Program-made: the position numbers and the translations under genes
Shown here: one piece after another, positions 2,771 to 25,941 of the stretch
Layout of the letters: each line of letters begins with the position of its first letter
Numbering within the stretch: position 1 is the first letter of the stretch
The notes under the pieces: generated by a model
Told to the model about the DNA's origin: nothing
What the model saw: the letters and a program-made list of their open reading frames with translations, nothing else
Databases searched by the model: none
Source of the DNA: Pseudoduganella albidiflava
GTDB lineage: Bacteria; Pseudomonadota; Gammaproteobacteria; Burkholderiales; Burkholderiaceae_D
Direction of reading: 5' to 3'
DNA: 64,000 nt
Assembly: GCF_004322755.1 (NCBI RefSeq)
Contig: NZ_CP036401.1
Location: 5,332,001-5,396,000, forward strand

Positions 2771-2780
2771 CGCACGCTCT

Positions 2781-3800: not shown

Positions 3801-3872
3801 CGGCGACTCCGGTGAGTGGAACGGTTTTGACAGTTGCGGCCATCTTATCGGCCCTTTGTGACTGCACAATGA

Positions 3873-3926
3873 CATCTAGACGTCTGCATTGAAAACGGAA
3901 ATTTTTATCTAGTCATCTAGACGTCA
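3873..3926. promoter_or_regulatory. Repeated ATCTAGAC operator-like sites between transporter and porin
   Basis: The divergent intergenic region holds ATCTAGAC at 3874-3881, ATCTAGTC at 3907-3914 and ATCTAGAC at 3915-3922. The outer two extend to CATCTAGACGTC and sit 41 bases apart, about four helical turns. The 14 bases GACATCTAGACGTC form a near palindrome centred on TCTAGA. One base differs from GTCTAGAC, the core bound by GntR/HutC-type regulators such as DasR and PhnR-like proteins. A GntR regulator of phosphonate uptake is therefore a reasonable guess, but no such gene is in the window. Confidence 0.45.
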
Positions 3927-3996
3927 CTACGTTGTCACAATGGCTTATTAAGCTGCGGTTCCGGTTACTTCTCCACCATCACTAGGGATCGATGAA

Positions 3997-5031: not shown

Positions 5032-5492
5032 TGGCCACCGTTCGTCAAGCCGGCATCGCCGATCTCCCGGCGCTGGCCCGGCTCTTCGCGCAGCTCGGCT
5101 ATCCCAACACGGTGGCGCAGCTGGAACAGCGCTGGCCGGACTTCCATGGCCGCGATGCCGATTGCTGGGTTGCCGTCAGCGGCGACGATGTCATCGGCGT
5201 GCTGGCGCAGAACTACGTGCTGCCCTTGAACACCGCCGCGCAGTACGCGGTCGTGAGTGCCTTCGTGGTGGATGAAGCGGTGCGGCGCAGCGGGGCCGGG
5301 AGAGCGCTGATGCGCTGCGCCGAGCGGGAGGCGGTGCGGCGGGGCTGCACGCACACGGAGCTTTCCAGCAGCATGCGGCGGCCGGTGGCGCATCTGTTTT
5401 ATCTGGACTACGGGTTCGTGGAAGTGCCGAAGCGCTTCGTGAAGGAGTATGCGGCGCGGGCACGGATAGCGAAGGATCGTAGCGAGGGTTGA
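5031..5492 (+). CDS. GNAT-family N-acetyltransferase
   Basis: A 153-residue single-domain acetyltransferase. The N-terminus VRQAGIADLPALARLFAQLG is the usual GNAT beta1-alpha1, and VDEAVRRSGAGRALMRCAE contains the R-x-x-G-x-G/A loop that binds the pyrophosphate of acetyl-CoA; YLDYGFVEVPKRFVKEY is the final substrate-side strand. The acceptor substrate cannot be told. The ATG overlaps the porin stop (TGATG at 5029-5033), which suggests co-translation, although the two products have no obvious joint function. Confidence 0.85.
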   Translation: MATVRQAGIADLPALARLFAQLGYPNTVAQLEQRWPDFHGRDADCWVAVSGDDVIGVLAQNYVLPLNTAAQYAVVSAFVVDEAVRRSGAGRALMRCAEREAVRRGCTHTELSSSMRRPVAHLFYLDYGFVEVPKRFVKEYAARARIAKDRSEG

Positions 5493-5658
5493 TAGCGAGG
5501 AGGACGGCAAGGAGTGCGCGGGAACGGGGCGGCAAAACTGTCGCGCCGATCCGACAATGTTTCAAAAGTTAAATTATTGCAAAGCTGATTGCTTACAATG
5601 ACCCGGCGGCCGCCCGCGCGGCCGCGCCCTGTCGCCCTCTCTCCAGCCACATAAAAAC

Positions 5659-8043
5659 ATGCCCATGAAAATTCGCCCGCCTGTCGTGTTGCGCCGTTCC
5701 GTTGCCGCCATGTGTATCCATGCGGCGCTCTATCCCCAGATGGCGGCTGCGCAGCAGGCGGCGCAGGAGGTAGCCCAGGACAGCCAGATCGAAGTCGTCA
5801 CGGTCACGGCGCAAAAGCGCAAGGAAGATCCGGCCAAGGTGGCCATGAGCATTTCCGCCATCAGCGGCTCGCAGCTGCAGTCGCAGCACGTCAACGACAT
5901 TACCGACCTCACGCGCGTGGTGCCCAACATCTCGTTCACCGCGGCCACCGGCAATGGCGGCGCCGGCCCGGGCACGTCGAACATCGAAGTGCGCGGCATC
6001 AGTTCGGGCGCCGGCGCGGCCACGGTCGGCATCTACCTGGGCGACGTGTCGCTCACGGTCGGCAATGTGTACACCATGGGCGCGGTGGAACCGAAGTTCT
6101 TCGACATCGACCGCGTGGAAGTGCTGCGCGGACCGCAGGCCACGCTGTACGGCGCCAGCTCGATGGGCGGCACCATCAAGTTCGTGCCGAACGAGCCGGA
6201 CCTGCAGGAGCGCGCATTCGAGACCTACGCCGAAACGTCCTCGCTGCGCGGCGGCGGCATGAATTATTCCGCATCGGCCGTGGCCAACCTGCCGCTGGTC
6301 GCCAACGAGCTGGCGCTGCGCGTCGGCGTGCAGGCCCAGCGCGCCGGCGGCTTCATCGACCAGGTCGACGGCGACGGCGCCGTGCTGGCGAAGGACATCA
6401 ACCGGGTGGACGACCAGGAAGTGCGCGTGGCGCTGAAGTGGAAGCCGTCCGCCAGGCTGACGGTGTCGCCGTCGGTGTACTACCAGAAGGTGGATGCCAA
6501 GGATATCTCGGCCTTCAACATCGAACTGCCCGAGTGGCAGGCGCGGAAGCAGATCCGCGAACCGTCGAAGGACATCCTGCAGACGGCCACGGTGCTGGTC
6601 AACTGGGACCTGGGCTGGGCCGACCTCACCTCGAGCACCAGCCATTTCAAGCGCAAGTTCGACCGCACCCAGAACGGCTCGGCCTACAACAGCTATTCGC
6701 TGTCGACCTTCCTCACCTCGACGGAAGACGGCGGCACGGCGCCGCCCGAGCTGATCGAGGCCATCGCCGCCCTGCCCTCCGCCGTGCTGCTGAACAACCG
6801 GGTGCGGCAGGTGTCGCAGGAACTGCGCCTGGCGTCGCGGCCGTATATCGCGGACAAGTACGGCCAGGCCCTGTCGCCATGGACCTGGCTGGCCGGCCTG
6901 TACGTATCGAACCAGCACACCAACATCAACGAGAACGACCCGATCTTCGGCGTCAACGACACGTTCGCGCAGTTCGGCTTCAGCAGCGCCGACCCGGACC
7001 TGCTGCCGGACGCCCGGCCGAACGCCTTCCCGAACGATAACGCCTTCATGGGCATCTTCCATTATCACGAGAAGCAAAGCTCGGTGTTCGGCGAAGCGAA
7101 CTACTACTTCACGCCGACCCTGCACGTGACGGTGGGCGCGCGCTACCTGAAGGGCACCTCCACGCTCGACCAGCAGAACGGCCTGTACCTCGCAGGCGCC
7201 GGCAACAACAGCAGCGCGCGCCTGTCGTCGCATGCCTTCATGCCGAAATACGCGGTGACCTGGGAAGTCGATCCCGCCCATACCGTCTACGGCACCGTGG
7301 CCAAGGGCTTCCGGCTGGGCGGCTCGAACGTGTTCGTGCCTCCCACCACCTGCGGCCCCGACCTGGAAGCGAACGGGCTAGCCGAAGGCCCGGCGACCTA
7401 TGCACCGGACAGCCTGTGGAACTACGAGATGGGCAGCAAGTCGCGCTTCCTGAACAACCGGCTGTCGCTGAACGCCGCGCTGTTCTACGCGAAGTGGAAG
7501 AACATCCAGCAAGGCGTGTACCTGCCGACCTGCACGTACACCTACAACGCCAACGCCGGCAATGCCGTCAGCAAGGGTGTCGAGATCGACATCAAGGCCA
7601 AGCCCCTGCCCGGCCTCACGCTGGGCGCGGCCGGTGGCTACGTGAATGCCGAACTGTCGAATGACGAAGGGATCCAGAACGGCGTGATCGGCGCGGTGCG
7701 CGGCGCCAAGGTGCAGGGGGTACCGAAGTACAACGCCTCGGTGACCGCCCAATACAACTTCGCGGTGGGTGGCAGCATGAGCGGCTACGTGGCCGGTGGG
7801 GTGCAGTGGGTGGGACCGAGCAAGGGCTCGCTCAATCCGGAACTGATCGACTACGAGCGGCCTTCGTATCACACCGCCGACCTGAGTGGCGGGCTGGCGT
7901 TCTCGCGGTACAAGCTGAGCGTGTTCGTGAAGAATGTGCTGGATGACGATACCGTGATTCAGCATCCGCAGGTGGCGTCGATCGTGCAGGGGTACCGCGT
8001 GGCACCGCGCAGTATCGGGGTGAGTTTGGCGGCGAAGTTTTGA
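5659..8043 (+). CDS. TonB-dependent outer-membrane receptor
   Basis: A 794-residue receptor of the kind used for large or scarce nutrients. It has an N-terminal signal sequence ending near QMAAAQQ, a TonB-box-like IEVVTVTAQKR at about residues 45-55, a plug domain with NISFTAATGNGGAGPG, IEVRGISSG and VEVLRGPQATLYGASSMGGTIKF, then a 22-strand barrel ending VSLAAKF with terminal phenylalanine. The sequence style (VTVTAQKRKEDPAKVAMSISAISG) matches receptors abundant in Massilia and sphingomonads, which often serve plant glycans or aromatics; the ligand is unknown. About 165 bases of non-coding sequence precede it. An alternative ATG lies two codons in. Confidence 0.92.
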   Translation: MPMKIRPPVVLRRSVAAMCIHAALYPQMAAAQQAAQEVAQDSQIEVVTVTAQKRKEDPAKVAMSISAISGSQLQSQHVNDITDLTRVVPNISFTAATGNGGAGPGTSNIEVRGISSGAGAATVGIYLGDVSLTVGNVYTMGAVEPKFFDIDRVEVLRGPQATLYGASSMGGTIKFVPNEPDLQERAFETYAETSSLRGGGMNYSASAVANLPLVANELALRVGVQAQRAGGFIDQVDGDGAVLAKDINRVDDQEVRVALKWKPSARLTVSPSVYYQKVDAKDISAFNIELPEWQARKQIREPSKDILQTATVLVNWDLGWADLTSSTSHFKRKFDRTQNGSAYNSYSLSTFLTSTEDGGTAPPELIEAIAALPSAVLLNNRVRQVSQELRLASRPYIADKYGQALSPWTWLAGLYVSNQHTNINENDPIFGVNDTFAQFGFSSADPDLLPDARPNAFPNDNAFMGIFHYHEKQSSVFGEANYYFTPTLHVTVGARYLKGTSTLDQQNGLYLAGAGNNSSARLSSHAFMPKYAVTWEVDPAHTVYGTVAKGFRLGGSNVFVPPTTCGPDLEANGLAEGPATYAPDSLWNYEMGSKSRFLNNRLSLNAALFYAKWKNIQQGVYLPTCTYTYNANAGNAVSKGVEIDIKAKPLPGLTLGAAGGYVNAELSNDEGIQNGVIGAVRGAKVQGVPKYNASVTAQYNFAVGGSMSGYVAGGVQWVGPSKGSLNPELIDYERPSYHTADLSGGLAFSRYKLSVFVKNVLDDDTVIQHPQVASIVQGYRVAPRSIGVSLAAKF

Positions 8044-8116
8044 GAAAGTGACTGCAACGCAGCTTACCTGGTCCGGATCGCACCGGCACTTGTTCAGCAG
8101 CCTGCATGCCCCTTCC

Positions 8117-8150
8117 GGAAGCGCCGGAGCCAGGTACGCCCGGCGCTTCC
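8117..8150. terminator. Strong 11-bp hairpin between receptor and hydrolase
   Basis: GGAAGCGCCGG at 8117-8127 pairs perfectly with CCGGCGCTTCC at 8140-8150 across a 12-base loop. There is no following T-run, so it is either a weak or factor-dependent terminator for the receptor gene or a leader structure, because it ends 15 bases before the hydrolase start at 8166. Confidence 0.5.
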
Positions 8151-8165
8151 CTCCTGGAGGACTCG

Positions 8166-9116
8166 ATGAAAGAGTTTCACCACATTTCACAAGCCGACTG
8201 CGCGGAGGTCGTGGAAGGCCCCGCCCCGGCGGCATTGCCGATCGTTCGCTACAAGACGGCGAACATCGATGGCGTGGAGGTGTTCTATCGCGAAGCCGGG
8301 CCGGTGGGCGCGCCGGTCCTCCTGCTCCTGCACGGGTTTCCAACCTCTTCCCACATGTTCCGCAACCTCATTCCCGTGCTGGCGAAACGCTACCACGTGA
8401 TCGCGCCCGATTATCCCGGCTTTGGCCAGAGCGGGGTGCCCGACCGGTCCGCGTTCGCGTACACCTTCGCCAACCTGGCGACCATCATCGACAAGCTGAC
8501 GGTCTTGCTGGGCGCGATGAAGTACAGCATGTACCTGATGGACTACGGCGCCCCGATCGGCTATCGGCTCGCACTCGCGCACCCCGACCGTATCCAGGCA
8601 CTGGTCATCCAGAACGGGAATGCCTATGACGAGGGCATCGCGGGCGCATTCTGGGATCCGTTCAAGGCTTATTGGGCGGATGGATCGCAGGCCAGCCGCG
8701 AGGCGCTTGCCCGCTTCGTCACGCTGGAAACGACCAGGCTTCATTACATGGATGGCATGAGCGACATCGCCCGCGTCAGCCCGGACAGCTGGATGATCGA
8801 CCAGGCATTGCTCGACCGGCCCGGTATCCGCGATATCCACCTCGACCTGTTTCACGACTATGGCAGCAATGTCGCGCTGTATCCGGAATTCCAGGCATTC
8901 TTCCGGCGCTGCAAGCCGCCCGCGCTGATCCTGTGGGGGAAGAACGATCCGATCTTTCCGGAGGCGGGGGCGCACCCTTACTTGCGCGACCTGCCCAGGG
9001 CGGAGCTGCATGTTCTCGATACGGGGCACTATGCGCTGGAGGACAAGTTCAATGCGATGGTGCCGCTGATCGGTGATTTTTTGGAGCGGAACTCGTGGGG
9101 GCGGTATCGGTCTTGA
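8166..9116 (+). CDS. Alpha/beta hydrolase, epoxide hydrolase/haloalkane dehalogenase-like
   Basis: A 316-residue alpha/beta-fold hydrolase. The oxyanion-hole strand LLLLHGFPTSSHMFRNLI comes at about residue 53, and the nucleophile elbow reads LMDYGAPIGYRLA with an aspartate in the nucleophile position, as in epoxide hydrolases and haloalkane dehalogenases rather than serine esterases. WGKNDPIFPEAG supplies the acid and DTGHYALED the catalytic histidine. NGNAYDEG after the elbow is shared with a well-populated group annotated only as alpha/beta hydrolase. The start at 8166 is chosen because GGAGG lies six bases upstream; an ATG at 8106 lacks one and would place the hairpin inside the gene. The substrate is unknown. 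Confidence 0.85.
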   Translation: MKEFHHISQADCAEVVEGPAPAALPIVRYKTANIDGVEVFYREAGPVGAPVLLLLHGFPTSSHMFRNLIPVLAKRYHVIAPDYPGFGQSGVPDRSAFAYTFANLATIIDKLTVLLGAMKYSMYLMDYGAPIGYRLALAHPDRIQALVIQNGNAYDEGIAGAFWDPFKAYWADGSQASREALARFVTLETTRLHYMDGMSDIARVSPDSWMIDQALLDRPGIRDIHLDLFHDYGSNVALYPEFQAFFRRCKPPALILWGKNDPIFPEAGAHPYLRDLPRAELHVLDTGHYALEDKFNAMVPLIGDFLERNSWGRYRS

Positions 9117-9291: not shown

Positions 9292-12200
9292 CTAGCGCTC
9301 AGAGAGCAGCAAGGTATTCAACAGATTTAATTCATTCGAAGCCATGAAGTAGCGGTCATCGAAAACCTGTGCCAATCTGAGCGGTTCAACCACTCCGACT
9401 ACGGCACACCACGGGAAGGACCTGTATCGTGCGATGGGTGGCATCGCCGCAGACCCGACGCACAACGATTTGCTGAGAGCGTTGAGCCAAAGGTCCGAGT
9501 CGCGCAACTCGAAAAACAGTCCACTGTTAGCCACTTCCGCTTGCATGAACTGCAGATAACCTGCGGGCACTGCGACCCAGGTGTTGGGCGATTTCAGGTC
9601 CTTCAACGTACTGAATTCAACAGCTGAGTCCTGATTGTCGCGACGCAGCAGCTCTGCCAGAGACTTGGCAGGTGTACGGAGCGTGTTCGGATAGCCCTTG
9701 TCTCCATCGATTTGATAAAGCTGGTTGAGTAGCTTGCGAGTCGACTGGGCAGTCTCGGCTTCGTGCCCTTCGAAAGTGAAAACTTCCTGCTTTGCGAAGG
9801 CCCCCCAATTTTCGACAATCACTGGCCCCGCGAAATATGTATGGTCGGGGAAACTGCTCGTTTCGCTGTAACAAAGTAAAGGGGAGATGGCGTTCGTGGC
9901 CAACTCCCGCATTGATGACAGTTCAGATTCCTTGACAACAGTCCGGCTATCGACATCCTTTTTACCCACGGCCTGGAGCTTCGTGCGGGAGAATAGCTCG
10001 ACAATATTTGCGCCAGCAGCTTTGACCAGGCCAACCCGGAGCGGATCCTTTCCTCGAAGCTTGAGTACTTCGGCTTCCTTGAGGAAATTGCTCACGTGTT
10101 GGGACATGATGCTGATCAGTTCTTCGGTACCGACCGCCCCGACAGGTACGAGTGCCAAAGGCTGCCGCAAGCCTGCGTCTCCCGTTATGCGCGTATAGAT
10201 GGTCGACCGCAGCATCACGAGGAGGGTGAGCAAATCCAGTGACTGCCGCAACCACTGGCGCTTGTCCGTCGGACCATCGCCAATGATGAAGTCGTCGACC
10301 ATCATCACTAACTGCCGGGGAACACTATCCCCGGAAACTTTTACCCCCTCCTCATTTAGATACTGACCACGGCCGCGATAGATCAACTGAGCGATTTCCA
10401 TCAAGGCCGCTTCGATGTTGAATCGAGGAACCGTCGCGATAATCCAGTCAGTTTTTGGGAACGAGACACCCCGCGCGCCGGAGGACGTCATGAGGAATAC
10501 CCGAACTTCGTCGCGAGTCTCGGGCTCGACCAATTGCTTCCTGCGCCAACCTGGTACCGACGAGTCCAGAATTTGCACATTCTCATCGCCAAGCCCAAAC
10601 GTTCTCCGGCGGGCAAGGAGGTCTTTCAAACTGCTCAAAAACAGCTTGTCTTGAGCGAAATAGATTACCTGCGCGGCACCTTTACTCAAGGCGTGGCAGA
10701 TTTCTTCAGCCGCGGACTCCAGAAGCTTCGCTTCGGCTTCGCGTCGAATCGCCTGGCGAGGAGTTTCCAGCAGGCCCTGGCTGGTTTCTTCAGGATGGAT
10801 TGACGTCATCCGAACGCGATAATGAATCCCCAGCTCACTCGCGGGATAGCTGTTGGTCATTACATGAAATGTCTTTGTCTTGACTCCGCCAATTTTTATG
10901 TCGGTGACTGCGATGCGAAATGCACGGTCGCCCTCTGAACGAGAGATGAGCACTTTGTCCGGCGTACGATCGCCGGCGTTGAGGTATCGGTCCAGGACCA
11001 CCTCGTTGCCCAGGGACGCGTCAGAGACAATTAGTGTCACCGTAAACGGACTGGGTTCGTCTTCAAAACAATGTATGAACTCGTTACGGAGCCACTTCGC
11101 TACCGCGTGCACAAAAGGCGCGCCCGCCCCATCGCCTGCCAATTCGTCGACCATGACAACGATGTTCGGGATGCTTTCTGCGAACTTTTTTCGTTCCTTG
11201 ATGGCCGCGTGAACATGGTTGCAAGGATTATTGAAGAGGCTGGAAAGCGCGTCCATGGTCGTTTTCCCGCCCCCCCGATCCCGGAATCCTTGCAGTGCGG
11301 CGGTCATGACGACACGATTCACGTTCGGGTTCAACACGAGCAACTCTCGCGTTGTCGCTGCCATTCCTTTGAGAACGCCAACCAGCGATTTCTCGCTGAC
11401 CCGGTCTTCATTTTCCGAAAGCGTATCTTTCCTTATCCTGCTGCTGGCGAAGTTGTCCTCGATTTCTTGCTCAGTTTCTGGTTCCAGCACAAGAATGGTG
11501 CCAGCCGCAGGCTTGACCAGGTTACGAACACCGTCCGCTACGACCGCGCCTTCGATATGCCGGCTCTGTGCCTTGCCTTCCTTTACCTGCTGCAGATGCC
11601 ACCGCTGTGCGGAAGCAATCAGTTGCGCGTTCGTGGTAACGGTGAGAATGCCGGTCGGCTCGCCCTCGTAGCGTGCGAGGCTTTCCGTGACATCACGGTT
11701 GATGACGACTCGCGGGCTCACATATAGGAACAAATAGCCCTCCTGTTTTGCTCCCAGGTGCTTGCGGACCGCCGTCGTCTTGCCGATTCCTGGATTCCCC
11801 TCCAGCGCAATGACATTGAGTTTTCCGGCCGCCTCTCTCTCCATGCCGGCAACGACCGCAGCGGCATGCAGGTCCCTGAGTGAAATACCCTGGCCATCGA
11901 CATCGTATTTTGCAAAGGCTGCGGACATCGCGACTTTCGCTGGCTGGCCGAGGAAATCGGTAAGTTCGGCGTCGTGCTCGACCATATCGAGCGACGCCGC
12001 CAAACTGAACTTCTCCATCGGGTTCGCGAACCTGGGCAGGTTCTCGTGGAAATCGAACTGGTAGTCTTCGCCCGGCTTCGGCATGGCGCGGAGACCTTTC
12101 ATGCCACGCTGAAGCGCGGCCGGCAGCTTTCGCAACACACTGTTGAACACTGCTTCCGTTTGCTCGGTCAAGCCATCCTCGTCGCCATCGGCCATTTTTT

Positions 12201-13140
12201 TTGTGTGGCGGTATGCATGGGCCATCTGCTCCATGAGCGCGCGGTCAGTGCCTCCTTGCTGGTCATCGAAACGGGCAGCAAGGCTTTCGAGCCCGTTCGG
12301 TGTGATGGCCAATGCACGAACGACGCAGGGATTGGCCATGACACCGGCGGCACGAAGTGTCCTGATGGTGGACTCGCCATAAGCGCTGGCCTGGCACAGC
12401 TTGTAGAGCGGCTTGTCGTGGCCAGAGAGTGCGTTCAGGTGATTTCGGATGTCGCTCGATAGCTCGAAACGTTCGCCATCGACTTCAGCGGCTACGCGGG
12501 CAAAGACGCTGCGTGAGTCGACGAAACGCCGATGCCTGACGATTTCGTCGAGATGCGCATCCTGGTCGCGAAAATCACCGAGCTCGGAAGGCATATCGTA
12601 CGAGTACTCCTGCACCAGGAGGTGGTCTTCACGCGAATCCCCGGATAACCAAAGCAGGAAGTCGGCATTGGCTGGCATTCCCTTTGCAGACAGGGCAGGA
12701 TCGGCGGCACCAGAAAGCCCGAACTCCTTTACAAACGCCAGACGATTCGCGAGCCGGGCCTCTGCCGGAGCACTGGAACTGCCGGGTAGCGCCAACGGGC
12801 ACCAGATAGCTCGCAAGCGGAGGCTACCGGCTTCTATGCGCCTGCACAAAGGCTTCAGATATTCACGCATCGCCGTATATCCGAGTCCATATGCTGTCAG
12901 AGCCATATGCTCGATCGCCGCCTTGACAACGTCTCGCGAAGTTTCATCCAGCAGGTCAAGCTCGCGGATGACACAGGCTGACACGCTCAGGAGCCGGGTT
13001 TCGCGCCACAAAAGCAAGCCAGGATGTTCCGGTGGCAACAGCTTCAACTCGATCAAGCATGCGAGCACGCCTCGCTTGACCAGAACTTCGTAGGCTTGCC
13101 CCCAGATCGCCGCTTGCTGTTGGAAAGATAGCTGGCTCAT
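9292..13140 (-). CDS. Large SF2-helicase-like ATPase, family not recognised
   Basis: A 1282-residue protein with an N-terminal region of about 440 residues that I do not recognise, followed by a helicase-like motor. Motif I is EGNPGIGKTTAVRKHLG near residue 450, motif II is VVMVDELAGDG near 665 (a DE box), a motif III candidate is IVSDASLGNE near 707, motif V is TSSGARGVSFP near 888, and motif VI is EIAQLIYRGRGQY near 921. Over 200 residues separate motifs I and II, far more than usual, so a domain is probably inserted. About 330 residues follow motif VI. The start overlaps the stop of the 1040-residue partner by four bases (13137-13140), indicating coupled translation of one system. GC is visibly lower than in neighbouring core genes, suggesting transfer. 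A DNA- or RNA-translocating role in phage or plasmid defence is inferred from architecture only. Confidence 0.75.
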   Translation of the reverse strand: MSQLSFQQQAAIWGQAYEVLVKRGVLACLIELKLLPPEHPGLLLWRETRLLSVSACVIRELDLLDETSRDVVKAAIEHMALTAYGLGYTAMREYLKPLCRRIEAGSLRLRAIWCPLALPGSSSAPAEARLANRLAFVKEFGLSGAADPALSAKGMPANADFLLWLSGDSREDHLLVQEYSYDMPSELGDFRDQDAHLDEIVRHRRFVDSRSVFARVAAEVDGERFELSSDIRNHLNALSGHDKPLYKLCQASAYGESTIRTLRAAGVMANPCVVRALAITPNGLESLAARFDDQQGGTDRALMEQMAHAYRHTKKMADGDEDGLTEQTEAVFNSVLRKLPAALQRGMKGLRAMPKPGEDYQFDFHENLPRFANPMEKFSLAASLDMVEHDAELTDFLGQPAKVAMSAAFAKYDVDGQGISLRDLHAAAVVAGMEREAAGKLNVIALEGNPGIGKTTAVRKHLGAKQEGYLFLYVSPRVVINRDVTESLARYEGEPTGILTVTTNAQLIASAQRWHLQQVKEGKAQSRHIEGAVVADGVRNLVKPAAGTILVLEPETEQEIEDNFASSRIRKDTLSENEDRVSEKSLVGVLKGMAATTRELLVLNPNVNRVVMTAALQGFRDRGGGKTTMDALSSLFNNPCNHVHAAIKERKKFAESIPNIVVMVDELAGDGAGAPFVHAVAKWLRNEFIHCFEDEPSPFTVTLIVSDASLGNEVVLDRYLNAGDRTPDKVLISRSEGDRAFRIAVTDIKIGGVKTKTFHVMTNSYPASELGIHYRVRMTSIHPEETSQGLLETPRQAIRREAEAKLLESAAEEICHALSKGAAQVIYFAQDKLFLSSLKDLLARRRTFGLGDENVQILDSSVPGWRRKQLVEPETRDEVRVFLMTSSGARGVSFPKTDWIIATVPRFNIEAALMEIAQLIYRGRGQYLNEEGVKVSGDSVPRQLVMMVDDFIIGDGPTDKRQWLRQSLDLLTLLVMLRSTIYTRITGDAGLRQPLALVPVGAVGTEELISIMSQHVSNFLKEAEVLKLRGKDPLRVGLVKAAGANIVELFSRTKLQAVGKKDVDSRTVVKESELSSMRELATNAISPLLCYSETSSFPDHTYFAGPVIVENWGAFAKQEVFTFEGHEAETAQSTRKLLNQLYQIDGDKGYPNTLRTPAKSLAELLRRDNQDSAVEFSTLKDLKSPNTWVAVPAGYLQFMQAEVANSGLFFELRDSDLWLNALSKSLCVGSAAMPPIARYRSFPWCAVVGVVEPLRLAQVFDDRYFMASNELNLLNTLLLSER

Positions 13141-16100
13141 GCCAAATCCCTGTCCTTGTGCAGGACCTTCGTTACGTGAGCCAGGACTGCAGGTACCGAC
13201 AGCAATACCGAACGGCCTCCTCTACGGCTCATGATTTCGACTTCGCCTGCCGCCGCGGTCGTTGTTGGCGATGACCAGTCGAAAGGATCGAGCACGGGCA
13301 ACAAGTGGGTCTTGTCCGAAGGTTTCTCGCTTTCCATGAAATGAATCGCGCGCAAAACGGCAACGAGCGACTTGCGCACTCCCTCTCCAGCACCGACACC
13401 GAGAATGTTCTGACGCACGGTTTCGTTAAGCTGCATATCGGATAGCCGCTGTTCCACATCGAAGAAGTAAGTGCAAAATCCAGACTGTGGGCGTGACTCC
13501 TCACCCACCACCGACAGCGTCGCAAAGGTATATATCGGCATCAGGCTACGCAGCACGTCGGGGGCGATTTCGTCATACATTGCTTGATGGTCCTTGAAAG
13601 ACACGACTTCAAACGCGCTCTCGTGGCTGGCGCGCCGGCGTAGCCTGGTGGCCGGGAAGACGTCTCGCCGGAGTGTATAGAGAAATACGCCAGGGAAGCG
13701 CTTTGCGGCGTCGTCGAGAAATTCCAAGGTGCCATGGGGCGAGTGCCGTTCCGCGGCACGCCCGATATGCCGGTTCCCGTAGTGGTGCGACAGAAGCACG
13801 ATATGCTCGAACCCATCCTTCTGCAGGCGGGATATCTCCTCGAGAATTGACTGCGGCGTATTGAAGTCCTTGCGAGTATCGACAACCCGCGACTGCATCT
13901 GGTCGAAACGCACGACTCCCTGGCCGTTCTCCCTGGAAGCTTTGTAGGTGCGGCTGATAAAAAGGAAGCCATCCGCATCCGCGTGGCCCGGATAAAGGTC
14001 ACATGGCCGCGTTACATAGGTGACGAGCGCCACCTTCTCGAGCTCTCCGGGCATGTCGAATTTCACCGGCTGGCTCCCGAGCAGTGCGTGAAGAGCACCG
14101 CGCTTCTTCCACCGATAGCCGTCGGCAGGATTGCGGTCCAAAGTTGTAAGACCTTGCAGCTTGACCGGCAGCTCACGCGAAAGCGTTTTTTCCAGGGCCT
14201 GGCTTACCGAATAGATCGCCGTATTGCCATCATGCGCGTCTTCTTCCCGCGAGCTCTTCTTCCCGCTGTGCTGCAGCCGCACCATCGTCATCGAAACGGG
14301 GCGGTTCAATGCCGTGGCAGTACGCCTCACTACCTCCCACAGCGCCACATAAGTCAGCAAGGAGAATGCAGTAAGAACCGCGGCACGTAGTTGCTCGCTC
14401 CGGGCCCTGTCCACCTCGGCGACCCGGCTCAGTTTGAGCGTTTTCAGGTCGTACTCGACCTGGACTCCCGCGCCGGCCATGAATGCGGCTTCGTTCGGGA
14501 TATCGCTTGACCAGTCCAGCTTTTCTTTCGTCCAGCGGAATGGAACGAGGCGCACCGGCAGAACCGCGGAAGACAAATCTCTCTCAATGGTGATTTGTTC
14601 CGCATCCCCCGAAGGTGTGAAGGACCGCTCCTGGAGCTGGGTCTGTACTGAGTAGCTTGCAATACTGCCTGGAACAACAGGCATGTCCGAGATCGTCAAG
14701 TGGGCAAACCAGACAACCGAGTTCGGGCCTTTTTCAGCCTCCTTCAGGACATTCGTTTTCGATGACGTCAGCGATTCCACCGCGTCCCAGTTCACGATTT
14801 CGCGGCCCAGTGCTACCGTGAACTTGTCGACTCCGCGATTGACAACGTCCACCAGGGTACGAGACTTCGTCTGCAGCACGGACACCAGCTCGTCGGCGAT
14901 GTCGTCCATGGCCTTGGACCGCCGGGTGAGCCGGTCGTGCAAAATCGTCAGCGTCCTGACAGGGTCGAGCTTGAGCTGGCTCGCGATACTCGCAGCCGTT
15001 GCTCCCAGGTCGAGCGCTTCGGCATCATCGATCGACTTGGGAATGACGAGATAAAGCAGTATGAGTTCGGCGACCGGCCTCTTCACATTCTGTTCTGGCC
15101 CTGGCGCGGCCAGTACGCGCTCATGAATGCGGGAAAGCCGGGTGTCAAAGGCGGACATGCCTGATTGCGGATTCTGGCCGTTGACCCGGAAACGGTACGA
15201 CACCTCACGAACGGTGTTAAAACCACGGGCCGGCTCAGTGCGGGTCTCGAACAGTTGAACCGACCACTCAGCCCACGCAGGCAGGCAATGATAGAAAAGA
15301 GCCTTGCGCAGATGGTCGCCAAACTCGGAGTTGTTCCCGAGACCGTACGCAGAACTGACATCGAGTAGCAGCGAATCCGCCTCGATACCGGCGAACATAT
15401 CGAAGCACTCGCGCACCCTGCCGACATACGCCTTCATCCCGGGCCGATTGCTCTGCGCGGCGACACACTCCATCAAGCGCAAGGTGACCTGCAGCCGCAC
15501 GCGGGACAAAGCTTCGTCGTCCAGGAAGTCCAACAGCTGTCGAATTTGACTCCCAGGTCGCGTGCCCTGGCTTCGAACGGCTGTAACAACCTCTTCGATA
15601 AACATCTCCTCTTGTCCATCTTTCCGCAACTTCGTCGCAATGCCGTTGAGGAGTACGTCGAGCCAGTTCCGGCCGTCTATGGTCTCGATTGCCGACAGTA
15701 CCCGCGCTACATCTTTCGAACGCTCATCGGACTTACGGCCGGGAGCGGCGAACTGGATTGGTACCATCGTCGCGGTCTTGGGGAACTCGGGCACGCGCTC
15801 ACCGACACTCTTCGCAAGGACTTCGAGCGCTTTGCTCAGGGAGGGAATGGTCAAGGCGCTGAAGTCAACGTCAGCCATCAACGCGTCGAGCTCGCTGGAG
15901 ATTGCGTCGCGCAGCTTCTCGACAGCATGCGCCGTGGCCGGCTCCGAACCCGGCACAAGCCGGCCACCAAGCTTGGCAGTAGTACCGAAGGGAGGAATTT
16001 CCACATCCCGTATGAAGCCAGTCTCGGTGCCTGGCACGAACTCGGGCTGGAACGAAGGGTTGGCCACGAGTCGCTGGATCACGCTTCGTGTGTTCAGGTG

Positions 16101-16259
16101 AAGGGTCGTGCCTTCCAATCGCATGAATGGCATCGCGGAGATGCCTCCTTCCCCCTTGGGTACCGCCTTCGCGACCAGGTCGGCCAGCTTGGCGAGTTGG
16201 AGAGAAGGGGTACGGTCGCGCGCGGATACGCTCGACCCACCGCGGATCGCGGAGGACAT
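13137..16259 (-). CDS. 1040-residue partner of the helicase-like ATPase, unknown family
   Basis: I do not recognise this protein. It has no signal peptide and only one notably hydrophobic helix (AAVLTAFSLLTYVALWEVV, about residue 610), so it is probably cytosolic. The N-terminal half is largely helical in appearance with a middle beta-rich part (VVWFAHLTISDMPVVPGSIA onward). The C-terminal third suggests an alternating alpha/beta fold: strands VALVTYVTRP, GFLFISRTYK and VVRFDQMQSRVVD, a helix with ILEEISRLQKDGF, strand EHIVLLSHHYG, a helix, and strand GVFLYTLRRD. That order is compatible with an RNase H-like or PIWI-like fold, but no catalytic motif is certain. The start at 16259 has GGAG eight bases upstream. 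It is the first gene of the two-gene unit and of the same lower GC as its partner. Confidence 0.7.
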   Translation of the reverse strand: MSSAIRGGSSVSARDRTPSLQLAKLADLVAKAVPKGEGGISAMPFMRLEGTTLHLNTRSVIQRLVANPSFQPEFVPGTETGFIRDVEIPPFGTTAKLGGRLVPGSEPATAHAVEKLRDAISSELDALMADVDFSALTIPSLSKALEVLAKSVGERVPEFPKTATMVPIQFAAPGRKSDERSKDVARVLSAIETIDGRNWLDVLLNGIATKLRKDGQEEMFIEEVVTAVRSQGTRPGSQIRQLLDFLDDEALSRVRLQVTLRLMECVAAQSNRPGMKAYVGRVRECFDMFAGIEADSLLLDVSSAYGLGNNSEFGDHLRKALFYHCLPAWAEWSVQLFETRTEPARGFNTVREVSYRFRVNGQNPQSGMSAFDTRLSRIHERVLAAPGPEQNVKRPVAELILLYLVIPKSIDDAEALDLGATAASIASQLKLDPVRTLTILHDRLTRRSKAMDDIADELVSVLQTKSRTLVDVVNRGVDKFTVALGREIVNWDAVESLTSSKTNVLKEAEKGPNSVVWFAHLTISDMPVVPGSIASYSVQTQLQERSFTPSGDAEQITIERDLSSAVLPVRLVPFRWTKEKLDWSSDIPNEAAFMAGAGVQVEYDLKTLKLSRVAEVDRARSEQLRAAVLTAFSLLTYVALWEVVRRTATALNRPVSMTMVRLQHSGKKSSREEDAHDGNTAIYSVSQALEKTLSRELPVKLQGLTTLDRNPADGYRWKKRGALHALLGSQPVKFDMPGELEKVALVTYVTRPCDLYPGHADADGFLFISRTYKASRENGQGVVRFDQMQSRVVDTRKDFNTPQSILEEISRLQKDGFEHIVLLSHHYGNRHIGRAAERHSPHGTLEFLDDAAKRFPGVFLYTLRRDVFPATRLRRRASHESAFEVVSFKDHQAMYDEIAPDVLRSLMPIYTFATLSVVGEESRPQSGFCTYFFDVEQRLSDMQLNETVRQNILGVGAGEGVRKSLVAVLRAIHFMESEKPSDKTHLLPVLDPFDWSSPTTTAAAGEVEIMSRRGGRSVLLSVPAVLAHVTKVLHKDRDLA

Positions 16260-16439
16260 GAGTCAGCTCCTTTCATTGGCCAGCTACGCCACTTCCCAAC
16301 GCGTCGATTCGATGCGAGGGGTTTTCGTTTTGGGTGACCCTAGTGTACCAACACTGCTTAAAAAAAGAGCAGGCGCGCTGAACTTTTTTATGACCTGTAT
16401 GCGCCTCCTGGGAGTGATGCTGATGAATTCTTCCGACCT

Positions 16440-17330
16440 TCATCCAATGAACGCCGCCAGCTCGTCCGGCGTCCCCTTCGGAAAAGCCTCCCTCAGGAAA
16501 TCGAGGACGGCGGACACCCTGGCGCTCAGCAACCGGCGGCTCGGATAGAGCGCCCACAGTTCGATGGCAGGGCCTTCCACGTCGCCCCAATGCACTAGCC
16601 TGCCAGCCGCCAGGTCGCCGCTCACGAGCGATATGGGCAGGCGCCCGGCGCCGACGCCAGCTCGCACCGCGTCGCGCACCATCACGAGCGACGACAGTGC
16701 CAGCACCGGATCGATGGCGATACTGGTCCGGGCCGCCGGGCCCGCGACTTCCCATGCCGCGGTCCGGTCGCCCGCGCCGCGCACCACGGCGGGCACCGGT
16801 GAACCATCCGCTGGCCGGGCGAGGCCAGGCGATGCCACGACCACCAGCCGGTCACGCAGCAGGATGCGGCCGACCAGGTTTTCATCCCGCGCCGGATTGA
16901 CGCGGATGACCAGGTCGTAGCCCTCTTCCACCATGTCCACGGAGCGGTCTTCCGTGGTGACCTCGACCCGCACATCTGGATACTTCAGCGCGAACCCCGC
17001 CGCCAGGCGCCCCATCGCGGTCTGCGAAAACAGCAGCGGCGCACTGATGCGCAGGCGGCCACGCGGCCGGTCGCCGCCCGAGGCAATCGCGGCCGCCGTT
17101 TCGTCGATCTCCGTCAGCAAGGCGCCAGTGCGCTCGAACAGTGCCCTGCCCTCCTCCGTCAGCTTCAACGTGCGTGCGCCCCGTTCGAACAGGCGCAGTT
17201 CCAGGCTGCTTTCCAGTTCCGCCACGCGGCGCGACAGCGTGGCTTTCGGGCGTCCGGTAGCCCGGGCGGCGCGGCCGAAGCCACCGTGGCGGGCAACGAG
17301 ATTGAAATCGGCAAGGGCAAGCAAGTCCAT
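16440..17330 (-). CDS. LysR-family transcriptional regulator
   Basis: A 296-residue LysR regulator. It has an N-terminal winged helix-turn-helix (DFNLVARHGGFGRAARATGRPKATLSRRVAELE, residues about 8-40) and a type 2 periplasmic-binding-like effector domain (GRLRISAPLLFSQTAMGRLA onward). The start at 17330 (MDLLALADFN) gives the standard N-terminus; an ATG at 17357 adds nine residues. It is transcribed away from the SDR gene at 17435, with about 100 bases between, the usual arrangement in which LysR controls its divergent neighbour. The effector is unknown. Two decayed fragments of a similar gene lie at 9152 and 19396. Confidence 0.9.
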   Translation of the reverse strand: MDLLALADFNLVARHGGFGRAARATGRPKATLSRRVAELESSLELRLFERGARTLKLTEEGRALFERTGALLTEIDETAAAIASGGDRPRGRLRISAPLLFSQTAMGRLAAGFALKYPDVRVEVTTEDRSVDMVEEGYDLVIRVNPARDENLVGRILLRDRLVVVASPGLARPADGSPVPAVVRGAGDRTAAWEVAGPAARTSIAIDPVLALSSLVMVRDAVRAGVGAGRLPISLVSGDLAAGRLVHWGDVEGPAIELWALYPSRRLLSARVSAVLDFLREAFPKGTPDELAAFIG

Positions 17331-17434
17331 AAGTGTTCCACCAGTGAGACAGTCCATCCAACTATACCGTCTATCGGACCGGCTGTGGAATACCTACCAT
17401 GGGAACCGTCATCTACCACTACGGAGCAAACATC

Positions 17435-18304
17435 ATGACCATTCTCGTTACCGGTGCCACCGGCACTGTCGGCCGCAACGTCGTCGAACAACTCGCCCGC
17501 CGCGGCGCCAGCGTGCGGGCGCTCGTTCGCGATCCTTCCAAGGCCAGCTTCCCCGCCGGGGTGACAGTCGTACAGGGCGACCTGCTCGATGTGGACTCGC
17601 TGCGCGGCGCCTTCGAAGGCGTCACCACGCTGTTCCTCCTCAACGCCGTGGTGCCGGACGAATTCACCCAGGCACTGGTGGCGCTGAACGTGGCCCGCGC
17701 CGCGGGTGTGAAGCGCGTGGTCTACCTGTCGGTGATCCACAGCGACGTGTACGTGAACGTGCCGCACTTCGCCGGCAAGTTCGGCGTCGAGCGGATGCTG
17801 GAAAACATGGGCTTCCAGGCCACCGTGCTGCGGCCCGCCTACTTCATCGACAACGATCTCACCGTGAAGGATGCGGTGCTGGGCCATGGCGTGTATCCGA
17901 TGCCGGTCGGCGCCAAGGGTCTGGCGATGATCGATGCGCGCGACATCGGCGAGATCGCCGCCATCGAGCTGCTGCGGCGCGAGCGCTCCAACGAAGCGCT
18001 GCCGTTCGAACGCATCAACCTCGTCGGACCGGACACGCTGACCGGCCCGGAGATCGCTGGCATCTGGAGCGAGGTACTGGGGCGGCCGGTGGGTTACGGC
18101 GGCGACGATACCGCCGCATTCGAGCGGAACCTGCGGAACTTCATGCCGGGATGGATGGCGTTCGACATGCGCCTGATGGCCGAGCGCTTCATCAGCGACG
18201 GCATGCTGCCCGGCGCCGGAGATGTGGCGCGCTTGACGGAGATGCTGGGGCGGCCGCTGCGCTCCTACCGTGAATTCGCTGCTGGCGTGGCCGCCGCGGC
18301 CTGA
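17435..18304 (+). CDS. NAD(P)-binding NmrA/SDR-like oxidoreductase
   Basis: A 289-residue atypical short-chain dehydrogenase of the NmrA/azoreductase type. The N-terminus MTILVTGATGTVGRNVVEQL is a Rossmann beta-alpha-beta with the GxxGxxG dinucleotide loop, followed by VRALVRDPSKASFPAGVTVVQGDLLD typical of NmrA-like proteins that prefer NADP(H). The start at 17435 has GGAG upstream and matches the family; the longer frame from 17399 lacks support. It is divergent from the LysR gene and followed after 21 bases by an SRPBCC gene, so the two probably form a small LysR-controlled operon. The substrate is unknown. Confidence 0.88.
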   Translation: MTILVTGATGTVGRNVVEQLARRGASVRALVRDPSKASFPAGVTVVQGDLLDVDSLRGAFEGVTTLFLLNAVVPDEFTQALVALNVARAAGVKRVVYLSVIHSDVYVNVPHFAGKFGVERMLENMGFQATVLRPAYFIDNDLTVKDAVLGHGVYPMPVGAKGLAMIDARDIGEIAAIELLRRERSNEALPFERINLVGPDTLTGPEIAGIWSEVLGRPVGYGGDDTAAFERNLRNFMPGWMAFDMRLMAERFISDGMLPGAGDVARLTEMLGRPLRSYREFAAGVAAAA

Positions 18305-18325
18305 CCTTTTCTTGAGGAGATCATC

Positions 18326-18799
18326 ATGATTTATTCGACTGCGACCGTTCCCGTGAATCCGGAGGGCGCGACCCCGCTGACGCGTGCGCAGGCGTGGGCC
18401 GGGCTGGTATCGAAGGCCCGGGATGCGCGCCTGTTCCTGCCGCCCGGCTTGTGCACGTGTTGCGATGTCGTCGAGGAGAGTGCGACGCATATCGTCCGCG
18501 AGGCCGTCATTGCCGGGGATGCTTTACGGGAGATCATCAGCTTCGAGCCCATGGCGAAGGTGTCGTTCTTCCAGGCCAGCGGGCCGCGCGAAGGCGTGAT
18601 CGTCAACGAGCTGTTCGAGGATGGAACCGGCGCGTTGCACTTGCGGTTCTACTGCTACCTGGGGTTGCGGGGGAAGGAGCCTGGTGGGACGGAAGAACAG
18701 GCCGAGCAGGCCTGGATGGATAGCGACAAGGGTTATCGGACCGCGTTGCTGTCGACGTTGCAGAGGACTCGGGAACTGGCTGGGGAAGGACGGCTTTGA
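18326..18799 (+). CDS. SRPBCC-fold protein of the AtaL/DUF1857 type
   Basis: A 157-residue protein. The opening IYSTATVPVNPEGATPLTRAQAWAGLVSKARDARLFLPPG and the segment EESATHIVREAVIAGDALREIISFEPMAKVSFFQ fit the DUF1857 (AtaL-like) branch of the START/SRPBCC superfamily, small hydrophobic-cavity proteins often beside oxidoreductases. GAGGAG lies a few bases before the ATG. It follows the SDR gene by 21 bases, consistent with an operon under the divergent LysR gene. The ligand is unknown. Confidence 0.7.
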   Translation: MIYSTATVPVNPEGATPLTRAQAWAGLVSKARDARLFLPPGLCTCCDVVEESATHIVREAVIAGDALREIISFEPMAKVSFFQASGPREGVIVNELFEDGTGALHLRFYCYLGLRGKEPGGTEEQAEQAWMDSDKGYRTALLSTLQRTRELAGEGRL

Positions 18800-18935
18800 T
18801 GCTGGTGCTGGCAGGGAGCGCGGCCCCTGCCTGTTCATCTAGCGGTGGCTCGGCATTCGATGCGGGGCTGGCTCCTGCGTGATGATCTCGCGCTGGTTGA
18901 TCATGCAGGGCGGAACAGCCCCATGCGGGCTCTAT

Positions 18936-19307
18936 TCAACAGCTTCCACCGGGATGCGGTTGCCCCGTCCTTAGATCAAACCCGAGGAAGCACATATACC
19001 CGTCGCCTGGCATGTAGGAGCACCATATCTCACCCTTGCTTCTCATCCGCTCGCCCTCCTCGGCGCTGCAAATTACGCCTTTCACATCTGGACCGATGGA
19101 CTCGAAGATTTGCCTGGCAGCTTGCCCGCGGATGGCAATCGCCAGCTTTTTGTCGGAGTTTGTCGGCGGTTTTCTGTTACCCGCTTCGCCCGAGTAAATA
19201 AGGTAGCTCGCAGATGTCAAAGGCCGGTTGGCACCAGTCCATTCGCCCGCTTCTTCGGCGTTTAAAGCACTTGGCACAAGTAGTGCCATGGCGAGCAATG
19301 TCTTCAT
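18936..19307 (-). CDS. Small secreted hypothetical protein
   Basis: A 123-residue protein with a signal peptide (MKTLLAMALLVPSALNAEEAGEW). The start at 19307 is favoured by AGGAG upstream. The mature part is about 100 residues with cysteines in GVICSAEEG, EIWCSYMPGDGYMCFLGF and the C-terminal PGGSC, suggesting disulfides in the periplasm. I do not recognise a family. GC is lower than in core genes, and it sits in an accessory stretch next to a LysR fragment. Confidence 0.6.
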   Translation of the reverse strand: MKTLLAMALLVPSALNAEEAGEWTGANRPLTSASYLIYSGEAGNRKPPTNSDKKLAIAIRGQAARQIFESIGPDVKGVICSAEEGERMRSKGEIWCSYMPGDGYMCFLGFDLRTGQPHPGGSC

Positions 19308-19395
19308 ATCGAACTCCTGGTGGAATGGCATGAAAGTAAGCGTCTTGACCCAATGCTTCACGCCGAGAATGTTCATATCGTTGAATAGGATTTAC

Positions 19396-19490
19396 AGGCT
19401 AACCAGCCGTTCATCCTGCGCCGGACTGACCCGGATGATCGGGTCATCGCCTTCTTTCACTATGTCCACGAAGCGGTCTCCGTCGTGACC
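19396..19490 (-). pseudogene. Internal remnant of a LysR-type regulator
   Basis: On the minus strand this reads GDRFVDIVKEGDDPIIRVSP then AQDERLVSL and a stop. It corresponds to EDRSVDMVEEGYDLVIRVNP then ARDENLVGRIL in the intact LysR gene (about 16870-16965). DNA similarity is roughly three quarters over about 95 bases. Neither the helix-turn-helix nor the C-terminus adjoins it, so it is a decayed fragment. It may come from the same ancestral gene as the C-terminal remnant at 9152. Confidence 0.65.
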
Positions 19491-19496
19491 CGTGAT

Positions 19497-19937
19497 CTAC
19501 CTGCACCGTATTTCAATACGCCGTGGCTCACCAGCCACCGGCCTGAACTTCGTGACCGTGCATTCCCTGATGCGATCACTCAGGCGTTGGGAAATCGAAA
19601 TCTCGCCACCCTCTCCGTACGCACAGTCGAGCCACGCCTGGTTTGAAGGCGCGCCTGGTTCGAAGGCATATCTCGTCGAGATCACGTGCTCCGTCCTGCG
19701 TAGTTCTTCGCCACGCAGGGTCAGCAGGCTGCCGGGCGGGCCGGACGACATGCCCGCCGAGTAAAGCTGCAACGGGAACTCGACATGGGGTACCCAGCCA
19801 GCGCCAGCTGCAACCTTGATCGCTTGCGGCTGAATCTGCGATGAACAAGCGATGTGCTTGCCCTGCGCCGCGACGTTTGCCGCCTGAAGAGTCAACGCTG
19901 CGGCGAGAAGATAGCGAGGAAAATGGTTCGAAGTCAT
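19497..19937 (-). CDS. STY0301-like secreted protein
   Basis: A 146-residue protein starting MTSNHFPRYLLAAALTLQAANVAAQG, a signal peptide. The mature part IACSSQIQPQAIKVAAGAGWVPH, then WLDCAYGEGGEISISQRLSDRIRECTV, matches the pattern I remember for the STY0301 family: an early cysteine, a central GW, then a W-x-C-x-Y and a late cysteine. Function is unknown; such proteins often lie in accessory islands. The longer frame from 20135 lacks signal-peptide character, so the start at 19937 is used. Confidence 0.6.
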   Translation of the reverse strand: MTSNHFPRYLLAAALTLQAANVAAQGKHIACSSQIQPQAIKVAAGAGWVPHVEFPLQLYSAGMSSGPPGSLLTLRGEELRRTEHVISTRYAFEPGAPSNQAWLDCAYGEGGEISISQRLSDRIRECTVTKFRPVAGEPRRIEIRCR

Positions 19938-20234
19938 TCGATCACCGGCAAAGCAAGCATAGTGCGCGCTGCCCGGCCTCGATACATTGATCACTGGCAA
20001 CAATCTGCCTCCCCACCGTCTGATGTGCAGGGCACAGTCATCCCGGCAAAAACAAATCCTGCCACCTGCACAGGATTTTCTTTTGACAATATCTTTTGCC
20101 AAGATGGAAAATAGCAGAATCGCTGGCTGCGACATGCCTTGTCGGTACGCAGTTCATGCTGCCGCCATCCCAAGCACACACAGCTTTCTAACCAGCGTTC
20201 AGCTCGCCACCCGCCATCCACCAGGAACGAACCA

Positions 20235-21161
20235 ATGCACCAACAACACCCCAGTCTCTACCAGCAAGTCGGCAACCTGCCCGACGAATCCCAGCGCAAG
20301 CGCCGCATCCGCTTCCACCAGGGCTGGTGGCGCACCTTCGTGCTGACGGAAGCCGCCGGTGCCCACCCGCTGCGCGCCGGAGAGACCGTCTGCAATGTGC
20401 TGGATGGCGGCGAAATCTCGAAGAAAAACCTGTTCGGTCCAGGCACCGTGGCGGCCGTCGAAGCAACGCTGGCCGCGCGCAGCAAGGCATCGGGTGGCCT
20501 GATCGACCAGCGCCGCCTGTTCAACAACCTGCTCTCCAGCCAGCCACTGGTGTTCAACTTCTTCGGTCCGCTGCAGCAGGACCTGGCGCTGGCGACGCGG
20601 GTGGTCCAGGCGCTGTTCCCCGGCGTCGACGAAGTCACGGCCATCCTGTTCGAATATGCGCCAGACAGCTGGATCGACAATTCCGCGTTCGACGTGGCGC
20701 TGGAAATCACATCGCAGGGCCGCAGCGGCCTGCTCGGGCTGGAGTGCAAATTCACCGAGCCCTTCTCGCCTACGGAATACAACACGGAGGACTACCGCAA
20801 GCTGGCAACGGCATGCGAGGCGTTCACCGTGCCATACGAAGCCTGCATCAAGCCGGAATTCAACCAGCTGTTCCGCAACCAGCTCATCGCCGAACACCAG
20901 GTGCGCGAGAAGAAGAAGTATGCGTTCCGGATGACGGGCCTGTTCTGCGAGCCCGGCGATGACAGCGCCATCGCTACCGGCAAAGCGTTCCGCGCCATGC
21001 TCCGGGACGGCGACAGCTCGTTCCATGTCGTCACCTACACGGCCTTCATCGAGGCGTTGCAGCGGCTGGAGCTGACGTGGGAGCAGCGCGAGTGGAGCAT
21101 GATGCTGTGGGCCCGGTACTGCGCACTGGGGCTCAGCGCCGGAGCTTATGGCGAGCGTTGA
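20235..21161 (+). CDS. PD-(D/E)xK nuclease, PGN_0703-type putative restriction endonuclease
   Basis: A 308-residue protein. The middle part SWIDNSAFDVALEITSQGRS leads into GLLGLECKFTEPFSPTEYNT: an aspartate, then E-C-K on a strand, the core D...ExK of PD-(D/E)xK nucleases. The surrounding pattern (FFGPLQQDLALATRVV before, ACIKPEFNQLFRNQLIAEH and WARYCALG after) resembles proteins annotated as PGN_0703 family putative restriction endonucleases. The start at 20235 replaces an upstream frame start at 20139 because the family begins with HPSLYQQVGNL-like sequence. No methylase is adjacent, so a classic restriction pair is not evident. A UDG-like gene follows after 110 bases on the same strand. 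Confidence 0.65.
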   Translation: MHQQHPSLYQQVGNLPDESQRKRRIRFHQGWWRTFVLTEAAGAHPLRAGETVCNVLDGGEISKKNLFGPGTVAAVEATLAARSKASGGLIDQRRLFNNLLSSQPLVFNFFGPLQQDLALATRVVQALFPGVDEVTAILFEYAPDSWIDNSAFDVALEITSQGRSGLLGLECKFTEPFSPTEYNTEDYRKLATACEAFTVPYEACIKPEFNQLFRNQLIAEHQVREKKKYAFRMTGLFCEPGDDSAIATGKAFRAMLRDGDSSFHVVTYTAFIEALQRLELTWEQREWSMMLWARYCALGLSAGAYGER

Positions 21162-21271
21162 TGAAGTGAACGCCCGACAGGCGGCGATTGGCTGCGACAC
21201 GTGATGTCGCATTGGCCGATAAGCTGATCTCATTCGTGGCAAGCTGCTTTCCACTCAAACGAAAGAAAACA

Positions 21272-22813: not shown

Positions 22814-22998
22814 GACAGCTTCCCCTTCAGTTAAGGCATTCCATGGCCAAGCTGGCCATGGGCGCCAACGCCGAGCTTACAGGATGCGCGCCCCCGCGCA
22901 CGATATGAGGCGTTGTCCGACACGACCGAAACGCAACAGCCTTTACTGCTAGATTGTCAATATCCGCAATCCAACCTCTTTCACACCGGTACCTGTCC

Positions 22999-25940: not shown

Positions 25941-25941
25941 G

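Follow-up and report, generated by a model that had tools for sequence, protein, structure and literature searches.

What do two very large, overlapping genes of Pseudoduganella albidiflava encode, and what might they do together? The genes lie in a 64,000-nucleotide stretch (hereafter the window) that covers positions 5,332,001 to 5,396,000 of contig NZ_CP036401.1 (assembly GCF_004322755.1), from a genome assembled as one 7.4-Mb contig. Both are on the minus strand. P0002 is the first gene of the pair (13137..16259, 1040 residues) and P0001 the second (9292..13140, 1282 residues); they overlap by an ATGA on that strand (13137..13140), an arrangement that suggests translational coupling. The first-pass annotation, made from the nucleotide letters alone, had described these two open reading frames (ORFs) and their overlap accurately, reading them as an ATPase and an anonymous partner that formed a new or highly diverged defence module. 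Computation has now established the pair itself, the linkage and co-evolution of its members, an Argonaute (Ago)-like predicted fold in P0002, a superfamily 2 (SF2) motor and a nuclease-like signature in P0001, patchy occurrence, and a defence-island setting. On balance, we lean towards an immune system of two genes directed at invading DNA, in which P0002 would be an Argonaute-like guide-binding sensor that recruits P0001, an SF2 helicase and perhaps a helicase-nuclease.

The two genes are strictly linked and co-evolving. A scan of genome contigs with the P0002 alignment gave 40 loci (31-60% identity), most of them titled beta- or gamma-proteobacteria, along with Synechocystis and a few metagenome-assembled genomes (Rhizobium, a planctomycete, Propionibacterium, Chlorobiaceae). 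Among the matches listed, the nearest named homologs of both proteins belong to Massilia or Telluria. The first-pass annotation had asked whether the pair is conserved together, and it is: a P0001 relative directly follows the P0002 relative in 40/40 loci, on the same strand and overlapping it or a few bases apart, with split or shortened copies at three of them (L013, L021, and L032). Across 24 loci (three plasmids and 21 of the 40 in genomes), identities in the one protein track those in the other: their matrices correlate at r=0.991, a value reached by 0 of 2000 permutations. The 40 loci, many of them on short contigs, show no third gene family near the pair in more than five cases.

Two smaller genes accompany some copies. 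A gene of about 300 residues lies directly downstream of the pair in Chromatium only (L028 16980-17888, L029 16989-17900, and L031 16942-17841) and is possibly a lineage-specific third component. Just upstream of the pair, five of the 40 loci carry a divergent ORF of 105-127 residues (L003 9492-9857, L006 9499-9816, L009 9484-9843, L010 9495-9839, and L013 9489-9872), a possible regulator.

P0001 is an SF2 helicase. At E<=1e-3 it has 468 relatives along its whole length and P0002 has 313 (the best 120 listed in each case), and by sequence comparison such whole-length relatives far exceed chance. Pfam places Helicase_C on P0001 under the cut-off (E 5.8e-4), together with weaker AAA/NTPase models; in distant relatives the same family is above the cut-off (L046 and L035) or equal to it (L045), and the Ago-like proteins of these relatives gave nothing of note against the model libraries. 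The structural model of residues 83-1282, with a predicted local distance difference test (pLDDT) score of 81.4, has SF2 folds among its structural matches, including MrfA, which we take to be YprA. Sequence searches of the PDB with P0001 returned weak DExH/DEAD matches.

The ATPase motifs named in the first-pass annotation are all present in the helicase core, which spans residues about 420-1000 (10141..11883, minus strand, as for each motif that follows). Motif I, or Walker A, reads GNPGIGKT (residues 448-455, 11776..11799), motif II DELA (665-668, 11137..11148), the possible motif III DAS (707-709), motif V SSGARGVSF (886-894), and the unusual motif VI QLIYRGRG (918-925, 10366..10389). Their key residues are invariant in 47/47 aligned relatives: K454 in motif I; D665 and E666 in motif II; D707, A708, and S709 in DAS; R890 in motif V; and Q918, Y921, R922, G923, R924, and G925 in motif VI.

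Residues 83-291 of P0001 (12268..12894, minus strand) form a PD-(D/E)XK-like domain, with an alpha-beta-beta-beta-alpha order in the model. Seven of its positions (D160, E178, S180, K243, K247, Q250, and Y254) are invariant in 28/28 aligned N-termini. When 50 sequences are compared, six still do not vary, while position 178 holds E in 47 and D in 3, which gives the signature D...(E/D)-x-S...K-x3-K-x2-Q-x3-Y. The opposite end of the protein is a conserved domain of residues about 1036-1280 (9301..10035, minus strand); no D/E-x-K pair occurs among its invariant residues, this C-terminal domain not having been folded alone. It matches L047:16783-17772 of Acetobacter persici (hhalign probability 99.1, E 1.3e-18), where the helicase is made of two overlapping genes (L047 13790-17772), the second being the C-terminal domain as a separate third gene.

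The partner need no longer be anonymous. P0001 and P0002 were alike in matching nothing at E<=1 in PADLOC (2023) or NCBIfam (2026), as the first-pass annotation had anticipated for a module that it could not name, and P0002 had no Pfam match at that threshold either. The AlphaFold2 model of P0002 (pLDDT 84.1, predicted template-modelling score 0.81) is more informative: the best 13 Foldseek matches in the PDB are all Ago or Piwi proteins, as are 48 of the 50 VIA rows in type. Judged from this model, P0002 has an Argonaute/PIWI-like MID-PIWI fold, which the VIA alignment to AfAgo 8-418 places at residues about 553-1034 (13158..14603, minus strand). Sequence profiles do not recognize P0002 as a classical prokaryotic Argonaute (pAgo): it matched neither Piwi (PF02171; Pfam, E<=1) nor any of 12 pAgos (hhalign probability <1%). 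A long pAgo does occur in another genome of the window's order (L062 146-3756), where it is overlapped by a 508-residue ORF with a nuclease-like VEAKYS stretch.

Classical PIWI nucleases carry an aspartate at the centre of the first strand and another at the end of beta-4. In 52 aligned sequences of the P0002 family, with positions assigned from secondary structure and not from superposition, the first PIWI-like strand has Y748-x-T750-R751-P752 at its centre, and the end of the beta-4 strand, position 825, is H in 39, N in 6, S in 4, and Q, R, or D in 1 each; no acid is conserved after beta-4. Since these are not the aspartates of classical PIWI nucleases, the PIWI of P0002 is probably catalytically dead. 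Within the MID-like region, the motif Y683-x3-Q687...Q702-G703 (14151..14213, minus strand) has Y at position 683 in 49 of the 52 sequences and F in 3; E690, Q702, and G703 are present in 52/52, and K or R occupies position 700 in 50/52 and position 718 in 45/52. The Acetobacter relative has a lysine form of the motif, Y-x3-K...QG, and three cyanobacterial relatives retain QG with K, K, and E at position 687.

Two described systems combine proteins of these kinds. In the DdmDE system of Vibrio cholerae, the sensor is a DNA-guided Ago without catalytic activity, and the SF2 helicase-nuclease that it recruits travels along the DNA of plasmids (PMC12409362). Plasmid loss caused by ApsAB of Escherichia coli ST38 needs both proteins, the motor residues, and the MID lysine, and depends in part on the nuclease (PMC11096173). 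By analogy with this division of labour, P0002, with its probably dead PIWI, would hold a short nucleic-acid guide by the 5' end in its MID-like pocket, recognize complementary invader DNA, and recruit P0001. The SF2 motor would then load onto the DNA and move along it with ATP, and its N-terminal PD-(D/E)XK-like domain may nick or degrade the invader DNA. Plasmids are the probable target and phages a possible one. Defence might also proceed without a guide, the Ago-like fold serving as a scaffold that binds protein or duplex and the helicase alone sensing aberrant DNA. We regard this as unlikely; nucleic-acid binding would fit well with the unvarying QG and with the basic residues at 700 and 718.

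Elsewhere the pair often keeps company with defence genes, and its occurrence is patchy. The first-pass annotation had raised the question of defence islands, and the flanks answer it favourably: at E<=1e-10, the 118 proteins flanking the pair at 35 loci drew 130 PADLOC models and the 108 control proteins drew 3, figures that count models, not proteins, and overstate the number of independent systems because restriction-modification models are redundant. The flanking set comprised 118 of 176 ORFs, the two nearest per side, with the near-duplicate L023 excluded; the control comprised 16 stretches of 15 kb from genomes related to that of the window, the loci spanning more taxa, and ORFs were called mechanically in both. 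The 25 models listed out of the 130 include ZacA and ZacB (Azaca), SngA (Shango), HmaC, mad2 (MADS), and a TIR effector, as well as methyltransferases of types I, II, and III and restriction enzymes of types II and III. Among the 25 listed of 81 Pfam families on the flanks are McrBC, GmrSD, integrases, and plasmid RepB. Acinetobacter offers two settings, one beside HipA/Fic genes and a PADLOC candidate helicase-restriction endonuclease (PDC-S37, also Hhe), the other beside HNH, methyltransferase, and WYL genes.

Either gene was found in 1/398 genomes of a phylum sample, 2/294 of the family, and 3/300 of the order (one only a partial match), the genome of P. albidiflava included each time. This distribution bears on another explanation, that the pair is an RNA/DNA helicase complex with a regulatory or housekeeping role and no part in defence. 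Large SF2 helicases commonly serve housekeeping functions, and the genes around the pair in the window are ordinary ones, as that explanation would have it. It is nevertheless disfavoured because the pair is patchy, and the defence-rich flanks and the occurrence on plasmids also speak against it; we consider it very improbable.

On plasmids, four records carry P0002 relatives and 11 carry P0001 relatives. Of the seven further cyanobacterial records with P0001 relatives, four were inspected. The conjugative plasmids of Trichormus, Nostoc N6, and Tolypothrix hold a gene of 1012-1169 residues just upstream of the helicase; the Stanieria record has a short helicase and no upstream partner was seen in it. 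Comparison by hhalign shows the Trichormus partner to be a homolog of P0002 (probability 98.9, E 2.3e-17, 780 columns); the Nostoc partner matches P0002 weakly (probability 42.7, E 2.5e-4). Phage records gave no match for P0001 or P0002, IMG/VR searched with the P0002 alignment gave 1 locus, and E. coli genomes searched with P0001 DNA gave none. Used as the query of a homolog search, the Acinetobacter Ago-like protein retrieved 6 proteins. On a Fibrella plasmid (L069 1-2886), a DEAD/DEAH helicase gene precedes a Piwi-domain protein, possibly a separate Ago-helicase pairing.

How, then, does the pair relate to systems already described? Among the titles and abstracts listed in literature searches, none dealt with the pair. 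It could stand next to DdmDE and ApsAB as a third class of Argonaute-helicase immunity, one that was assembled separately. Its marks would be a PIWI lineage invisible to sequence profiles of classical pAgos, an SF2 motor with an N-terminal nuclease whose catalytic lysine has shifted out of E-x-K into the next helix (K-x3-K-x2-Q-x3-Y), and carriage by conjugative plasmids as well as by defence islands of chromosomes. We advance this tentatively, at somewhat less than even confidence.

A competing account places the pair within the published ApsAB/DdmDE family as a remote branch, related by common ancestry and not separately assembled; this is a real possibility, though we would not bet on it. 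The two-part composition is the same, adjacent Ago-like and SF2 helicase genes in one operon, and ApsAB too has a QG motif and occurs on genomic islands that carry further defence systems, Shango for one (PMC11096173). The ApsB pattern given there is Y[X]3K[X]nQG[X]nK and that of P0002 is Y[X]3Q[X]14QG; the Acetobacter relative has Y[X]3K...QG, and two cyanobacterial relatives have K at 687. The ApsAB-like family reaches beta-proteobacteria and cyanobacteria according to the same source, as does the P0002/P0001 pair.

Against common ancestry stands, to begin with, the gene order: the Ago-like gene, of 1040 residues, comes first in 40/40 loci, whereas apsA lies upstream of apsB by our reading of the operon in that paper, where the survey retrieved coding sequences downstream of apsA (PMC11096173). 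ApsA has a C-terminal PD-(D/E)XK nuclease (D...DVK) and the motifs GFGKS/DELH/SAT/QAVGRVER (PMC11096173), and DdmD likewise joins an N-terminal helicase to a C-terminal PD-(D/E)XK (PMC12409362). P0001, in contrast, has its nuclease-like D...E-x-S domain at the N-terminus, no invariant C-terminal D/E-x-K, and the motifs DELA/DAS/QLIYRGRG. ApsB, with the MID lysine and C-terminal residue 743, is described in PMC11096173 as being without the PIWI RNase H fold, through which P0002 aligns, and position 687 of the P0002 family is mostly Q. PDB profile searches, in a copy presumed to contain DdmDE chains, gave no sequence link between P0001 or P0002 and DdmD or DdmE; among the VIA rows for P0002 none is named DdmE, and one (8xih) is titled only protein-DNA complex. 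A motif scan of IMG/VR for ApsA returned 32 stretches; the full set of ApsA motifs was absent from all of them, and L100 is a different helicase-like ORF.

Other systems share single features with the pair. The short Agos of SPARTA and SPARDA have an inactive PIWI fold and supplied structural matches in Foldseek and VIA. There the partner activated by the inactive PIWI is a TIR or nuclease-APAZ protein, not a helicase, and P0002 is roughly double the length of the chains among its Foldseek matches. pPIWI-RE resembles the pair in joining a divergent bacterial PIWI to a helicase partner (PMC3702460). The pair, however, has two genes in another order, no restriction endonuclease (REase) gene was seen with it, and Pfam does not recognize its helicase as DinG. 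RNaseH_pPIWI_RE and related Pfam models gave no match at E<=1. Without the Pfam match and the triad of REase, DinG helicase, and pPIWI-RE that define that system in the same source, the pair is not pPIWI-RE, to which P0002 is at most related by fold. A PF13032 search of 274 genomes found no match anywhere, the 14 controls included, and so carries no information on pPIWI-RE. The YprA-family systems (DISARM, Druantia, ARMADA) also use a large SF2 helicase (PMC12458937), but P0001 has no DUF1998 match (Pfam, E<=1) and its partner is Ago-like. The closest analogues are DdmDE and ApsAB, which act on plasmids, and not DISARM, BREX, or Hachiman, named in the first-pass annotation; of its candidates only pPIWI-RE keeps a link, by fold at most. 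Its defence-module reading is thus borne out in part, through pairing, patchiness, and defence setting, and revised as to the partner's identity and the closest systems.

Several observations weigh against a guide-bearing Argonaute-like sensor working with a helicase-nuclease. The Ago kinship of P0002 is drawn from the predicted fold, without a sequence-profile link: hhalign gives probabilities of 0.1-0.4% against 12 real pAgos and 0.24% against L063 alone, a PDB search with a profile of the PIWI region brought up no Ago, and PDB sequence searches with P0002 returned nothing meaningful. The top 13 Foldseek matches have whole-chain template-modelling scores of 0.18-0.23 of the query and root-mean-square deviations of 10-24 Å. 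Two acids persist in the PIWI-like region, D754 in 49/52 and D866 in 51/52, so that loss of catalysis is only probable and a residual catalytic centre possible. At position 687, the site of the 5'-phosphate lysine, Q is found in 43 of 52 sequences, H in 5, K in 2, and Y in 2, and Y683 gives way to R or H in the three cyanobacterial relatives. In P0001, Ser replaces the nuclease lysine of E-x-K, and the profile of the N-terminal domain found no nuclease in the PDB. Ordinary genes adjoin the pair in the window and occur in flanks elsewhere (sugar-nucleotide enzymes, for example). As for phages, ApsAB had no effect on eight of them (PMC11096173).

Within the window the pair lies, as the first-pass annotation had it, between an alpha/beta hydrolase gene (8106-9116, plus strand) and a LysR gene (16440-17357, minus strand), with a TonB receptor gene (5659-8043, plus) and an NmrA-like gene (17399-18304, plus) beyond. 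Its lower guanine-plus-cytosine (GC) content was also correctly noted: 56.4% in P0001 and 59.0% in P0002, against 66.7% at 1-9000 and 64.1% at 16300-33000. No bounding repeats and no convincing promoter were found at the locus. A clean empty site was sought in the genus, where both flanks matched at different places (e.g. G720 and G527), so simple insertion of the pair is not demonstrated. Further along, low-GC genes at 35090-40459 adjoin the type VI secretion system gene TssF; with products that include a DUF6708 protein and one bearing the VasX N-terminal region, they look like a cluster of type VI secretion effector genes. A 647-residue ORF at 42753-44696, in a stretch of 46-49% GC, had no Pfam or PADLOC match at E<=1e-5, and a Mutator-family transposase lies at 45869-47131.

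If the pair is the immune system proposed here, a hidden Argonaute-like branch would have been missed by the Pfam, PADLOC, and NCBIfam models used here, and the pairing of an Argonaute-like sensor with a helicase motor would have arisen or diverged repeatedly. The system would be suited to asking how such sensors distinguish plasmids from the chromosome. It would also give a likely function to large hypothetical genes in Burkholderiales, methanotrophs, Chromatium, Acinetobacter, and cyanobacteria.

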